From NCBI GenBank assembly GCA_956465555.1, contig OY101117.1, forward strand, positions 2,418,001 through 2,482,000: a stretch of 64,000 nucleotides of DNA, in the 5' to 3' direction. The DNA is from Nitzschia sp. pyKryTriq1 (lineage: Eukaryota > Bacillariophyta > Bacillariophyceae > Bacillariales > Bacillariaceae). The position numbers and the translations under genes are program-made. A model generated the notes under the pieces. It ran no database searches. It had not been told where the DNA came from and saw only the letters and a list, made by a program, of their open reading frames with translations. Shown piece after piece: positions 2,917 to 57,976 of the stretch. Position 1 is the stretch's first letter. Each line of letters starts with the position of its first letter.

Positions 2917-5900
2917 CTACTTCCCGCCTGGACGGGAAAGCATACAAGCATCACCATAGGAAAGGAATCGAAAGCCCCTTTTCTGCGCTTCCTCGTAAAT
3001 TGACTTGATTTTTTTGCCATCTTTTAGGAAAGCAGACACAAGAAGCATCAGAGTAGAATCAGGGGCGTGAAAATTAGTAACGAGGTGATCCACCAATTTG
3101 AAATCGTAGGATCCTGGAACAATCATGAGGGAGGTGCTGCCCGAGACATAATCGCTGTCGTCCACACCCTCGATTAAGGCGCTCAAGGCTGCGACCCGCG
3201 TTGCATTCTTTCCCTCTCCCACAGCCAGCGGCACCCATTCAAACTGCCCTAGCTGAATCGCCTGCGGGTCACAATCCAAGCCTCGTAGCCGCTTCACGCC
3301 AGACCAAAAAAGACTCTCTAGAGTTCGCGCAGATGTTGTGCCTACCACAACGAGATCCTTAGAAGATTTCAAGGCTTCAATGATCCGTTTAATCTCACTG
3401 ACAGAAACCGAAAACCTTTCAGCGTGCATCGAATGCTTTCGAGCGTCCTCCACCATCACCGGTTTGAACGTACCAGCTCCAACATGGAGAGAAAGGAAGC
3501 TGCAGTTTTGGGCGCCAATTTTAGCTAGAACATCATCGGTGAAATGCAGCCCTGCCGTCGGTGCAGCAACAGATCCACCCTGTGCGGCATACACATTATT
3601 GTACGCAACTTTGTCACTTTTTTCGGCATCACGATGGAAATAAGGGGGAATCGGAACTGTTCCAGCTGCATCGAGGAATTCTTGGACTGACAAATTACTG
3701 AGAACTCTGATGACACATTCAGTTCCGTTACCGCTACTCTTCTCGTCTTCGATCCAATCACTGAAAGATTGCAGCTGTTAGTTAAGGACGAGGGAATAGG
3801 ATCTACCCAGCCTTTATGCATGCCGCATTGGACTTACCCCTTGACCTCGACAACCTCCACTTTGCCTTTACCATCAATCTCGTCAAAGACGTCGCCACTT
3901 TTCAAATGACCAGTTCGTATCATCACGTGAAGATCAGTTTCGTCACATGGAGCTCCCAGATCTACCGAACCCATATCGAGAATCATCATCTCCGTTCGAG
4001 CTCCCCCAGGGCCTTTGACGAACAGTCTAGCGTCAACAACCCGGCTTTCGTTGAAAACAATATGGGAACCCTTAGTGAGATCAACGATGATATCTGCAAA
4101 GTTTGGATAGTGGGTTACATTGCCGTTGGAGCTGACACGCAGCAACTTAGAACTACCCCTTGGCGAAGCTGGATACTTTGCAATGGATTCATCGTTGAGC
4201 TCGTATGTGTGATCACTCATGCGAATATCGCTACTGTCTGCGACGGTGTCGATAGCACGAGCGGCGTCAAAGTCCTTCTCTGTGAGGACATTAGCTTCAA
4301 AAGTAAATAACTCCAGAGTCACCTCGACTCCGTTAACATAAGCATGCTCAAATTTCATATTGGCGTGGTGATCCATGATGGTGCTCATTTCGTCTACCTT
4401 TTCTGCAAATTGCAGAGCCTCTGTGTAACTTTTGAAATGATATGTTTTGGTAAGTGAAGCGGGCCGTTGGTTCCAACTTTTCTCGACAACTCCAGTGGCA
4501 TACATGCGATCCCATGCAGCTTGCACTACATTCTTGAATAGGCAAGCCTTGCTCAGAGGAACGACTCCACCGGGAAAGGAGCTGAACTGAGTGGCGTAGT
4601 GGCTGACATCGCCTGCGACGTCAGACACTAGACAGTCTTTCTCTTCCACAAAAGTGGCACCAATATTTATCAACACGCCATTGACCCATTTTGCTTTCAA
4701 AAGTCCAGGAAGGCCTGCGCAAGCAAACACAATGTCGGCGTCTTCTGTAAGTTGCTCTAGGGATTCAGCATTGACTTGCGAATGCGCAACTGTAACAATG
4801 CCCCCCTTTTCGCGCAACATATAAGCGATGGGAGAACCAACGATTGGACTGCAACCAACAACCAAACACTTTTTGTCCTTGACATCCACTTCATATTTTT
4901 TTAAGAGGGCCATGGTTGCATCAGGGGTGACTGGAGGATAAGCGTCCTTGTTGCCAATCTCACTTTGGCCGACAAAGTGGATACCGCCCACATCTTTCGC
5001 AATATCAATGGCATTGTAAACGCGTTTGGAATCAATGTGTTCTGGTAGTGGCCACATGAGTTGGATACCGTCATAATCCTTGAGAGCGTATATCTGACTG
5101 AGGAGTGCGTCCGTGGTAGTAGACATCTCCAGATTGATCTCCGAAACGTCAACACCATTGGCCTCCCCGGTGATAGTCTTGTCAAACCAACTGCTTGTAC
5201 AATTGTTATAGAGCTGAAGACGACGCTGAGCGTCTTTGTAACGCGATAGTTCACCAACCGTGATCACTGCGAGTGAAGGCCTTCGGCCGTAGGTATCGTG
5301 AAAGGCCGTAGCCGAAGCCTTGACGTCTTCTAAGATTTCCATGGCCAGCTGATTGCCGCAAAGCAGTTGAGCCGGTGGCTGCCACACAGACGCGTCAAGT
5401 CCGAATCTCGGTTCCACTTTTTGGTGGTCCAGTAACCACCTGGTGGCGTTCTCGAACCTATATGGAACAATGACTCCCAAGCGATCACCTGCTCTAGTCT
5501 CAGAAACAAAATCGTTGCACTGCTGCAGCATTTCCAACTGGAAGGCCTCCGAAGGATACCAATGATCATTCTCCTCATCGTCCAGCTTGAGCATTTTTCT
5601 AGCTTCCTCTACCATTTTAACACCATCTTCAGGGTTTCGAATGACAGTTTCCCACCCCTGAAAGGTTGCGTGTAAGAACGCCGAGACTACGCCACGGCGG
5701 TCCTGATCTTCAAGAGCTTCGTTGGCCACAAATAGAGTTTGTCCGTAGCCTAGCTTGGAGCCATTCAATCCCTCCATAGCTGCGACGACAGGCTCTTTGC
5801 CGTCAAGTTCACGACGAAGAGTCGGGACCTCTGTAGTAAGATACGCCTGAATACCGTCCAAGGCTCCAGACTTTAAGTCAGAGATCTTGGACGATCGAGG

Positions 5901-6428
5901 AGAGGCAATGACTTTCTTGTCCGGAAAGATACGCCGCATCAACTCAACTGTATCTTCATGAGCCCCAATGACGGCATCTTTTTCATGGACCTTGTCGGAG
6001 AGGGAGGCCACGCAAAGTGGGGAACGACGAAACATAGCTGCAACGGCCTTGACCTTCAAGTCTCGATTCTGGTACAGCGTCGGAATGAAAATGTTTTGCT
6101 CCACTGAACCGACGGTTACATGGTCTGGATTCGAATCCTGATGCCGACGCACTCCCTCGAGCTCCAAGCCAACGGGGCAAATAGGCAAGAAAGAGACGTC
6201 GAGACCGTTTTTGGTGTACAAGCCGTTCACAAGGGCACTGGCCACGCCTCCAAACTGAGGAGACATGTAGTAGTCAAGTTGGACTGCGACCGAATGCTTG
6301 GAGCGTCGGGTGCTGAGTAGAGCGCGGTTGTTGGTGTTGCTCCTGTTGCATCTTGCGAATGATGATGCCAACAACGAGCTGCTGAGATGATTCCTTTCTC
6401 GCAATTTCTGAACGATGGACTGCCTCAT
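2917..6428 (-). CDS. four-module fusion: THI5/NMT1-like + FolD-like + pterin-4a-carbinolamine dehydratase + QueA (1144 aa)
   Basis: Two exons, 6428-3838 and 3760-2917, join in phase across a 77-nt intron (GTAAGT...TTTCAG) that lies inside the QueA module. Residues 1-45 are rich in R, S, N and L, resembling a mitochondrial presequence. Residues ~48-345 resemble THI5/NMT1 and SsuA-type binding proteins. Residues ~347-645 are methylenetetrahydrofolate dehydrogenase/cyclohydrolase (FolD): a PPVTPDATMALL segment, GCSPIVGSP and FPGGVVPL. Residues ~660-730 are pterin carbinolamine dehydratase (SYTEALQF, DHH, LTEKDFDAA). Residues ~735-1144 are S-adenosylmethionine:tRNA ribosyltransferase-isomerase (QueA): VFNESRVVDARL, PTAGLHF, LHVGAGTF, GTTSART, LVTNFHAPDSTLMLLVSAF. 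QueA makes epoxyqueuosine in tRNA from preQ1-tRNA in bacteria. The FolD catalytic Lys is Gln401, and other key residues differ; the third PCD His is Phe710. The modules are clear; their combined role is unknown. Confidence 0.9.
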
Positions 6429-55894: not shown

Positions 55895-56485
55895 TGGTGA
55901 TGATGATGATTACTATGATGTCCTTCCTGTTTGCAACGATATGCTACTTGCCGACTCATATATGGTGCAATGCATGCTATCCTGTCTACCCCAAGTTCTA
56001 AACAGAGCCAAGTACACTAACTCTACGAACGAAGGGTGCTTTCTTGTTGCCCTTAGCTGATGATGTATTACACAACCGGTAGTCGTAGTCGTAACTGGAA
56101 ATAAGATTCATTTGATTTTCCACTACTGGATCTTCAAAGTTTCTTCCTCTGCCCTTGGAGTGTTTGTCCTGTTGACATGAGAGCATAGAGGATTGAAGCT
56201 AGTAACAGATGATGAGGATAAGAGATAATGTGTGCAACAATACAGTAATAGCGATCAGATGGTTCAATACAGCGATATCAAAACTGGAATCGGACGAGTC
56301 GGTGCGAAAGAATGCGCGCTAAAATAACCGCTTTGACGATCGATGGACGATGATGGGGCGTGTGATCTGGTTGGGGGAAGAGATGACGAGCAAAGAATGC
56401 GTAATGCGTATCATACCACCAGACCGACTCCACTCTCTAGAGTCTATCCTATCGTCACCGCCGCTCTCTATGCTTGATTTTCAGA
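55895..56485. other. intergenic region upstream of the TrmO-like gene
   Basis: About 590 bp. A GATGAT run follows the preceding stop. No gene supported. Confidence 0.4.
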
Positions 56486-57976
56486 ATGACAACCAAAAGG
56501 ATACGATCAAAAATGATAATCCTTCGGTTGTGTGAGTGGATATCAATCGCATCGACGGCATCCGCTTGGTTGAGTTGCCCATGGCCAAGAATAACTACCA
56601 TAAAGAGAGATCCTCTCTGTCGATTACCAATCTTGCAAGTGAGACCGTACGTTTTTCTCGGGGATAGTGATAGTGAGCAACCATCGAACCAACGACGGAT
56701 AAGAAGCTATTCTATGGCACCTCGAGAAGAATTGAAAGGTGGAAGGGTGCAACCTATCAATGGAACAATCGATGGTACGAACACGAGAAACCTTGATCAT
56801 CCTATTGAGCGAGAGCAGATGTTACGAGATGAGTCTTCTAGCCCATCTGGAGAGGCCGAGTCAATAAGACCTCAGCCGTCTTCGTCTTGTTCTGCATCGG
56901 CCAAATCACGGAACCAGCATAAAAATCATCGAACAACTTCCAACAAGAGAACTTCTCGTTCCAGCAAAATTCAATCAGGTAGGTCAACAACATTGACAGA
57001 TAACAATCAAGCTCTCATGGACGAAGGTCTCATAGTGAAGCCAATTGGAGTCGTACGATCGATTTATCGACTCTGTGTGGGGACACCTCGCCAGGGACTG
57101 CTCGCCCCCAACGCCCGTGGCTGTATCGACTTGTTCACACTTGGCAATTCATCCCCTGTTAGCTCCGTCGAAGGCTTGGAGTCATATTCGCACATTTGGG
57201 TGGTATTCATTTTTCATCTAAATACGCAGTCCGAAAATGCATCCCGAAGAATCAAGTCCAAGATCACTCCTCCAGCACTGGGAGGACAGAAAGTCGGCAT
57301 ATTTGCAACACGTGCCCCACACCGTTTCAATCCCATCGGAATGACTCTCTGCAAGCTTGATCGTATCGAAAGAATAGACAAAAGGAATGTCAAACTTCAT
57401 ATTTCGGGCATGGATTTGGTGGATGGCACACCCGTTCTCGATATCAAGCCCTATGTACCAGTGTACGATTCAGTGACACCCATGGGAAAGGTGGTGTCCG
57501 AGGATGTTCGTGTCCCAGACTGGGTAGAAGGAGGACTGTTGTTGAAACGATCAATCATCGTGACGAACGCCGCTCGAGAAGAGCTGGAGGGGATACTCCA
57601 AAAGGACACGAGTGCGTTGGAATTCTACGGTCCTGATCATGGTGAGGCAACTGTGGAAGAGACGATCGAGGCTACTTTAGAGTGCATACGGCAGGTTCTC
57701 AGGATGGATGTTCGATCTTCGTATCAAACGAAAAAATCTCGTGCTGGAAAGTTCAAGGCAGAGCGATCCACTCGCCTTAAGGTGGATGATGCTTCCGAAA
57801 TCTCAGACGAGGAGGGCGAAGCCGACGACCAGGAAGCAGCGCATTGTACCCAACAATTGGACAATTTATTGATCCATTTCAATGTTGAGGAACATAGTCC
57901 GAGAGGATCCACATCGGAGAACAGTGGTGCTGAAGACACTCTGTGCGTCACATCCATCAAGCTCCTTGAAAAGTGA
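56486..57976 (+). CDS. TrmO-like tRNA (t6A37 N6-methyltransferase) family protein with plastid-type presequence (496 aa)
   Basis: The frame starts at 56474 with TTG; the ATG at 56486 is used. Residues 183-335 are TrmO/UPF0066 (YaeB): IVKPIGVVRSIYRLCVGTPR, ARGCIDLF, LESYSHIWVVFIFHLN, GIFATRAPHRFNPIGM and DLVDGTPVLDIKPYVPVYD. TrmO uses SAM to methylate t6A37 in tRNA-Thr of bacteria and some eukaryotes. The N-terminus has a hydrophobic segment ending STASA then WLSCPW, like a diatom bipartite plastid signal with W at +1, so an organelle role is likely. About residues 25-160 align with the presequence and linker of the next gene (serine acetyltransferase). An acidic tail of about 100 residues is extra. 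Single exon. Confidence 0.85.
   Translation: MTTKRIRSKMIILRLCEWISIASTASAWLSCPWPRITTIKRDPLCRLPILQVRPYVFLGDSDSEQPSNQRRIRSYSMAPREELKGGRVQPINGTIDGTNTRNLDHPIEREQMLRDESSSPSGEAESIRPQPSSSCSASAKSRNQHKNHRTTSNKRTSRSSKIQSGRSTTLTDNNQALMDEGLIVKPIGVVRSIYRLCVGTPRQGLLAPNARGCIDLFTLGNSSPVSSVEGLESYSHIWVVFIFHLNTQSENASRRIKSKITPPALGGQKVGIFATRAPHRFNPIGMTLCKLDRIERIDKRNVKLHISGMDLVDGTPVLDIKPYVPVYDSVTPMGKVVSEDVRVPDWVEGGLLLKRSIIVTNAAREELEGILQKDTSALEFYGPDHGEATVEETIEATLECIRQVLRMDVRSSYQTKKSRAGKFKAERSTRLKVDDASEISDEEGEADDQEAAHCTQQLDNLLIHFNVEEHSPRGSTSENSGAEDTLCVTSIKLLEK

Follow-up and report, generated by a model that had tools for sequence, protein, structure and literature searches.

In a single nuclear gene of the diatom Nitzschia sp. 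pyKryTriq1, a QueA-like tRNA-modifying enzyme is fused to three eroded modules of vitamin-enzyme type; the order is NMT1/THI5-like, FolD-like, PCD/DCoH-like and QueA-family. The gene lies on a 64,000-nucleotide stretch of contig OY101117.1 (assembly GCA_956465555.1, positions 2,418,001 to 2,482,000), which we call the window and by whose positions it is numbered here. Its QueA domain resembles most closely a lineage of Bacteroidota proteins, and our analysis points to this second QueA type standing beside ordinary QueA in all 25 bacterial genomes examined. From sequence evidence we read the diatom protein, with a probability of roughly 0.4, as an organellar S-adenosylmethionine (SAM) ribosyltransferase that would act before QueH and would carry binding modules at its N-terminus. 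The four-module order with a second-type-like QueA appears to be new; a eukaryotic QueA in itself is not.

One nuclear gene with four modules

The gene consists of two exons (Table 1), whose spliced coding sequence of 3435 nt specifies 1144 amino acids and a stop. When exon 1 is extended to the first stop after it, the open frame counts 864 codons and spans the three N-terminal modules and the start of the QueA domain. The intron is of the GT-AG type, with GTAAGT at its 5' end, a CTAAC branch-like site (CTTAACTAAC) and TTTCAG at its 3' end; its length is not divisible by three, it interrupts codon 864, and splicing gives the in-frame junction ..VEVKG^DWIEDE... This reconstruction bears out an earlier note on this DNA, which had proposed one frame, a single clean intron and a product of this length.

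Pfam matches were judged against the curated cut-offs, and all five exceeded them: NMT1 (PF09084) at residues 177-267 with 31.4 bits (cut-off 20.5), THF_DHG_CYH (PF00763) at residues 357-480 with 47.3 bits (32.8), THF_DHG_CYH_C (PF02882) at residues 493-638 with 108.4 bits (27), Pterin_4a (PF01329) at residues 650-728 with 49.2 bits (26), and Queuosine_synth (PF02547) at residues 738-1138 with 273.6 bits (25). The NMT1 match is the weakest of the five and covers profile positions 128-214 of 216 only. The four module types therefore stand in the order that the earlier note had given.

That the structure reflects two genes, or an artefact of assembly or annotation, is very improbable, given that exon 1 alone joins NMT1, FolD, PCD and the start of QueA in one frame. 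The window holds zero Ns, and the GC content at third codon positions (GC3) changes gradually along the gene, from 0.67 in the 43-residue N-terminus to 0.55, 0.50, 0.47, 0.48 and 0.48. The locus is single and sits in a contig of 3.61 Mb; the genome totals 40.65 Mb in 20 contigs. Because the window lacks Ns and GC3 shifts gradually, an assembly join is unlikely, and none was seen inside the frame, which exon 1 keeps continuous. The four-module fusion is real, and it is one nuclear gene.

The QueA domain resembles a second QueA type of Bacteroidota

A profile search of the contigs recovered no PF02547 gene besides the fusion. Its QueA part is 32% identical to E. coli QueA. The five best matches among plasmid records are Bacteroidota proteins of about 400-425 amino acids with 36-39% identity; in three of these records the protein is annotated as an S-adenosylmethionine:tRNA ribosyltransferase-isomerase without the name queA, and in the other two it is unannotated. 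Judged by record title, the best 80 of at least 587 relatives in the genome collection belong to Bacteroidota, apart from one Ignavibacteria. We refer to these relatives as the second QueA type, recognized by the signature SLYW.G...Q.W.P and RFLSYGD.

Second-type proteins, such as WP_010182051 (named S-adenosylmethionine:tRNA ribosyltransferase-isomerase), are the best bacterial matches of the fusion domain at about 35-42% identity and share its insert and signature. They differ in being stand-alone proteins, of the length given above, that lack the NMT1, FolD and PCD modules. Canonical QueA (TIGR00113) shares the fold family and most near-universal residues with the fusion protein, but it lacks the insert, is 23-36% identical to the fusion domain across the 17 sampled sequences, and has none of the 19 diagnostic columns in common with it. 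These columns were taken from an alignment of 100 bacterial rows: 83 of the second type (80 genome loci and three plasmid rows) and 17 canonical (four plasmid rows and 13 others). At the 19 columns, the fusion domain carries the second-type state 12 times, the canonical state never, and neither state seven times; with gap columns left out, the count is 7 of 13 for the second type versus 0 for the canonical type. The shared insert, SL(Y/F)W.G...W.P, lies between the GTTSxRTxES and TNFH motifs, and the RFLSYGD ending is shared as well; the Tyr that follows W.P in the second-type rows is Leu in the fusion.

Two trees split canonical QueA from the second type plus the fusion protein, with 100/100 support in the first (37 of the 83 second-type rows) and 99 in the second, which combined 12 of the 83 earlier rows with 69 rows from 69 of 82 later loci, the other 13 having no matching frame above 360 aa. 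In these trees the fusion domain stands at the base of the second-type clade on a long branch. When it was held with the canonical rows, an approximately unbiased (AU) test did not reject the arrangement (p 0.455); on an unrooted tree this speaks to placement on the stem only, and it therefore weakens nesting within the second type and not the residue evidence.

Sixty-seven positions are near-universal, meaning that one residue occupies them in at least 95% of the 100 rows, and the fusion domain retains 61 of them, which suggests that the chemistry is probably kept and that the active site is probably intact. Overall, the QueA part resembles the Bacteroidota second-QueA lineage most closely. 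The earlier label QueA thus holds for the family domain (PF02547); as a functional label it is unproven, because the likeness is to the second, longer type. Since this second-type-like gene is the only one found in the organism, the diatom offers a clean place to learn the role of that type.

The second QueA type in bacteria

Ordinary and second QueA coexist in each of the 25 Bacteroidota/Ignavibacteria genomes behind second-type loci, with PF02547 scores of 355-471 bits for the ordinary protein (two copies in G003) and 309-342 bits for the second (split into 239 and 77 in G007). Across 395 evenly sampled genomes of the phylum, searched at an E limit of 1e-60, 82 gave a second-type match, at 342-700 bits; others among the matches listed reached at most 241 bits. 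Because its bacterial owners also keep an ordinary QueA, the reaction of the second type may differ from the ordinary one.

This leads to a rival explanation with a real but clearly smaller than even chance, namely that the second type is a QueA family with a different reaction, which would still cleave SAM but place a ribosyl-derived group onto another acceptor (another base, tRNA position or a small molecule) held or delivered by the pterin- and binding-protein-like modules. It gains from the regular coexistence with ordinary QueA and the presence in 82 of 395 genomes, and from an insert and signature of the second type's own that the fusion protein largely shares, yet of the 67 residues that the two QueA types share, 61 are retained, and the second-type gene neighbourhoods point to no other pathway. 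The diatom genome yielded no TGT clearly of the preQ1 type, which fits this alternative, whereas the QueH present in the same genome does not: we know of no QueH substrate other than epoxyqueuosine. A bolder version, which we consider unlikely, holds that the second type forms an enzyme family apart, with a SAM-ribosyl reaction particular to it, and that in the diatom it is joined in one chain to three retired folds of the pterin/folate/thiamine kind that would present the acceptor, so that a new organellar tRNA nucleoside or base would arise and be reduced by QueH.

The neighbourhoods themselves were examined in 80 and then 82 second-type loci, with between 1.5 and 8 kb of flanking sequence, shortened in some cases by contig ends. 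A neighbour of the DUF2027-annotated kind occurred in 24 of 80 loci (23 of 79 as a near neighbour) and a phosphatase-like protein in 19 of 79, and no neighbour family exceeded 16 in the later 82; no neighbour in either set pointed to a pathway. In one locus, from a Bacteroidota metagenome-assembled genome (L061), a stand-alone PCD gene at 4834-5145 lies directly downstream of the second-type QueA. A PCD-QueA operon as forerunner of the fusion was considered and rejected, PCD being present in 1 of the 162 loci (tblastn, two PCD queries). A single literature search for the second type, on QueA paralogs, found no paper.

The N-terminal modules are probably not working enzymes

The PDB matches of the NMT1-like part are weak, to a solute-binding protein (4nmy, E 0.0017) and a pyrimidine-binding protein (3ix1, E 0.0018), and an AlphaFold2 model of the module built without an alignment had a mean predicted local distance difference test (pLDDT) score of 35, too low for use. 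A genome-wide PF09084 search gave no match and missed the fusion gene itself, so it says nothing on paralogues. Fungal Thi5 carries a CCCFC motif; we sought it in the fusion protein and did not find it, with four cysteines present within residues 1-350. The earlier description as THI5-like is upheld as a family match over its cut-off and fits the binding-protein superfamily; nothing shows HMP-P synthase activity.

Tyr52-xxx-Lys56, Gln100 and Asp125 (human numbering) are called critical for FolD (PMC6443876), and all six reference rows retain them. In the fusion, Gln100 is replaced by Met and Asp125 by Gly in all three alignment modes, an insertion breaks the YxxxK spacing, and the Arg173 position holds Cys. 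Both FolD domains are nevertheless recognised, with 34% identity to the genome's own FolD, so that the module resembles the FolD/MTHFD family in fold signature and differs from it in these residues. The losses are not unique to the fusion, since the divergent FolD-like gene L015, elsewhere in the genome, likewise deviates at Lys56, Gln100 and Asp125.

The PCD active site has three histidines. The fusion module matches the PCD/DCoH family and retains the HH motif but has Phe in place of the third His, which the genome's own PCD (L016) and a bacterial PCD retain in the alignment. At other loci the genome carries separate FolD and PCD genes that are intact. Because residues required for the known reactions are lost, the FolD- and PCD-like modules are probably not working folate/pterin enzymes; of the enzyme-type modules named in the earlier note, the families are recognised and the FolD and PCD catalytic residues are gone.

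Such losses, together with the weak NMT1 match, would also be expected if a QueA-type enzyme carrying out the canonical queuosine (Q) step had fused accidentally with a folate/pterin gene in decay, its N-terminal modules drifting without a function in Q synthesis. We consider such a passive fusion quite unlikely: the reading frame runs uninterrupted through every module, and scores of 108 bits for the FolD NAD(P) domain and 49 bits for the PCD domain are still reached, suggesting that structure is under selection.

Of the FolD-like frames elsewhere in the genome, L015 (C3:1753105) and L014 (C14:757305) are divergent genes without the usual Gln-Leu-Pro-Leu-Pro motif, which we take to resemble monofunctional NAD-type methylene-tetrahydrofolate dehydrogenase, and the L012 FolD frame begins with a signal-peptide-like stretch.

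Late queuosine steps in the same genome

QueH, whose known substrate is epoxyqueuosine in tRNA, is present in single copy, scoring 196 bits and carrying the CC, CxxC and CxC clusters. Where the earlier note had weighed a real local step in Q synthesis beside a repurposed reaction, this gene lends support to the local step. The QueG domain (PF08331) was not found, its model having matches in 7 of 14 control genomes, and the two preQ1-synthesis genes covered by the search, QueC and QueF, were not found either (models matching in 12 and 8 of the 14 controls). These absences are provisional, because the six-frame searches disregarded introns and may overlook genes that are split; the fusion gene itself escaped the NMT1 search of the same kind. 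Provisionally, the genome thus appears to have late Q steps without detectable preQ1 synthesis. A QueA-family enzyme, QueH and an extra TGT in one genome make organellar Q chemistry from a precursor directly testable in a eukaryote.

The TGT family comprises two equal-scoring QTRT1-like genes (L003 and L004), a QTRT2-like gene, a third TGT (L005) and shorter fragments. Against the NCBI Tgt cut-off of 306.75, L005 scores 360 bits and the QTRT1-like frame just passes with 307.1; the L005 frame ends about 20 residues before the end of E. coli Tgt. Work on Zymomonas Tgt shows that replacing Val233 by Gly widens the pocket so as to admit queuine and that a Cys158-to-Val exchange weakens the affinity for preQ1 (PMC3660597). 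L003 has the eukaryotic Val/Gly pair at these positions, and for this reason L003 and L004 are read as QTRT1. A reading of the L005 pocket as pointing to queuine was withdrawn, a second alignment giving Leu and not Gly at the Val233 position.

Several observations concern the TGT genes themselves. L003 and L004 each lie within about 25 kb of the end of a different contig, and their equal scores suggest a recent duplication between chromosome ends. Four short TGT-like stretches (C4:1180566, C8:1600751, C1:1692086 and C1:3596187; profile about 197-251), each with an internal TGA, may be exons belonging to additional TGT-like genes, or copies that have decayed. The L005 frame starts with a signal-peptide-like stretch (MRICVSQRKALLVMGSLSLFLLSISESSSF) and is possibly plastid-targeted, unlike the fusion N-terminus, which lacks such a core.

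Proposed role of the fusion protein

In the reading we favour, the product of the nuclear gene is probably imported into an organelle, where its C-terminal third would work as a SAM-using ribosyltransferase-isomerase of the QueA superfamily. It would move the ribosyl group from SAM to a 7-deazaguanine that occupies the wobble position in organellar tRNA and rearrange it there, and the epoxy-type product would then be reduced by the single QueH. The preQ1, or another 7-deazaguanine, would be obtained from outside, since neither QueC nor QueF was detected. The NMT1-, FolD- and PCD-like modules would have lost, or never had, the reactions after which they are named, and may act as small-molecule- or tRNA-binding, dimerising adaptors whose folds would keep the enzyme dimeric or within a complex. 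What the sequence shows is the structure of the gene, the order of its domains, the lineage signal in the QueA part, the missing catalytic residues and the QueH and TGT genes; import, substrate, sequence of the steps and the adaptor function are inferred from these. The N-terminus is presumed to be an organelle-targeting peptide: its first 40 residues have a net charge of +6, a first acidic residue at position 11 and no strong hydrophobic signal-peptide core, the maximum hydropathy over 11 residues being 1.25 versus 2.35 in the L005 frame.

A number of points weigh against this proposal. The targeting claim is built on a crude calculation of the N-terminus, and YhhQ, the preQ0/preQ1 transporter, was not found in the (provisional) genome search, its model matching in 9 of 14 control genomes. 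The TGT that would have to supply the substrate is also in doubt. L005 has Leu at both the Cys158 and the Val233 positions in all three alignment modes, so its pocket is neither of the preQ1 type nor the queuine Val/Gly pair, and no TGT found in the genome is clearly of the preQ1 type needed to supply a QueA. Calling L005 bacterial-like is a reading from its sequence, and identity puts it no closer to E. coli Tgt (38%) than the QTRT1-like frame (41%). The strongest objection is that bacteria owning the second type retain an ordinary QueA as well, so that the second type probably has some other task in them. As to the QueA domain, two of the six differing near-universal positions adjoin (YQTVY to YNNVY), and its scores fall below the NCBI cut-offs of TIGR00113 (265.3 vs 267.45 bits, a narrow miss of about two bits), NF001140 (292.5 vs 324) and a third, narrower QueA model (189.8 vs 588). 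A Parabacteroides second-type protein passes both general models, which therefore do not separate the two types.

Precedents

Eukaryotes are usually said only to salvage queuine, and the earlier note had called QueA essentially bacterial. Mitochondrial BL-TGT, QueA and QueG have, however, been published for Chloropicon and Galdieria (PMC12301720), which gives the reading favoured here an algal precedent. The route described in that paper is alike in having a nuclear extra TGT and a QueA-family protein, a step that reduces epoxyqueuosine, and preQ1 that is taken up rather than made. It differs in that QueA has its own gene-table entry and the reductase is QueG, whereas here QueA is the second-type-like tail of a fusion and the reductase is QueH; YhhQ, reported there for some Chloropicon isolates, was not found in the present genome. 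Which base such TGTs use is a question raised also for Chloropicon (PMC12301720).

In agreement with the earlier note, no description of the four-module order was found in the literature searched, which was part of larger result sets with most subscription papers outside it. The main text of a paper on FolD evolution (PMC11064299) contains neither the word queuosine nor NMT1, and the FolD fusion it describes in opisthokonts joins FTHFS. Among viral contigs no relatives of the fusion were found, and a comparison of the NMT1 part with plasmids found none. The exon-1 protein matched 54 phage records and, among the ten matches listed, through its FolD part only.

Features and minor observations

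Table 1. Features of the fusion gene, numbered in the window, and TGT genes of the same genome, numbered by contig (C2, C4)
Feature	Position	Strand	Details or basis
Whole fusion gene	6428..2917	minus	exons 6428..3838 + 3760..2917; product 1144 aa
Exon 1	6428..3838	minus	NMT1, FolD and PCD modules, beginning of QueA domain
Single intron	3837..3761	minus	77 nt, within QueA domain
Exon 2	3760..2917	minus	remainder of QueA-family domain
Residues 1-43, presumed organelle-targeting peptide	6300..6428	minus	crude charge/hydropathy calculation
Residues 44-350, NMT1/THI5-like (periplasmic-binding-protein type) module	5379..6299	minus	PF09084; weak PDB matches
Residues 351-642, FolD-like module, catalytic residues lost	4503..5378	minus	PF00763, PF02882; residue comparison
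Residues 643-732, PCD/DCoH-like module, HH kept, third His to Phe	4233..4502	minus	PF01329; alignment
Residues 733-864, first part of QueA-family domain (exon 1)	3838..4232	minus	PF02547
Residues 864-1144, rest of QueA-family domain with second-type insert SLFWSG...W.P (exon 2)	2917..3760	minus	PF02547
L003, QTRT1-like	C4:3374581-3375516		profile search
L004, QTRT1-like	C2:22408-23343		profile search
L005, third TGT	C4:1089162-1090346		profile search

Another tRNA-modification family is present in the window, as a protein with the N-terminal domain of TrmO (tRNA methyltransferase O) is encoded on the plus strand at 56474-57976.

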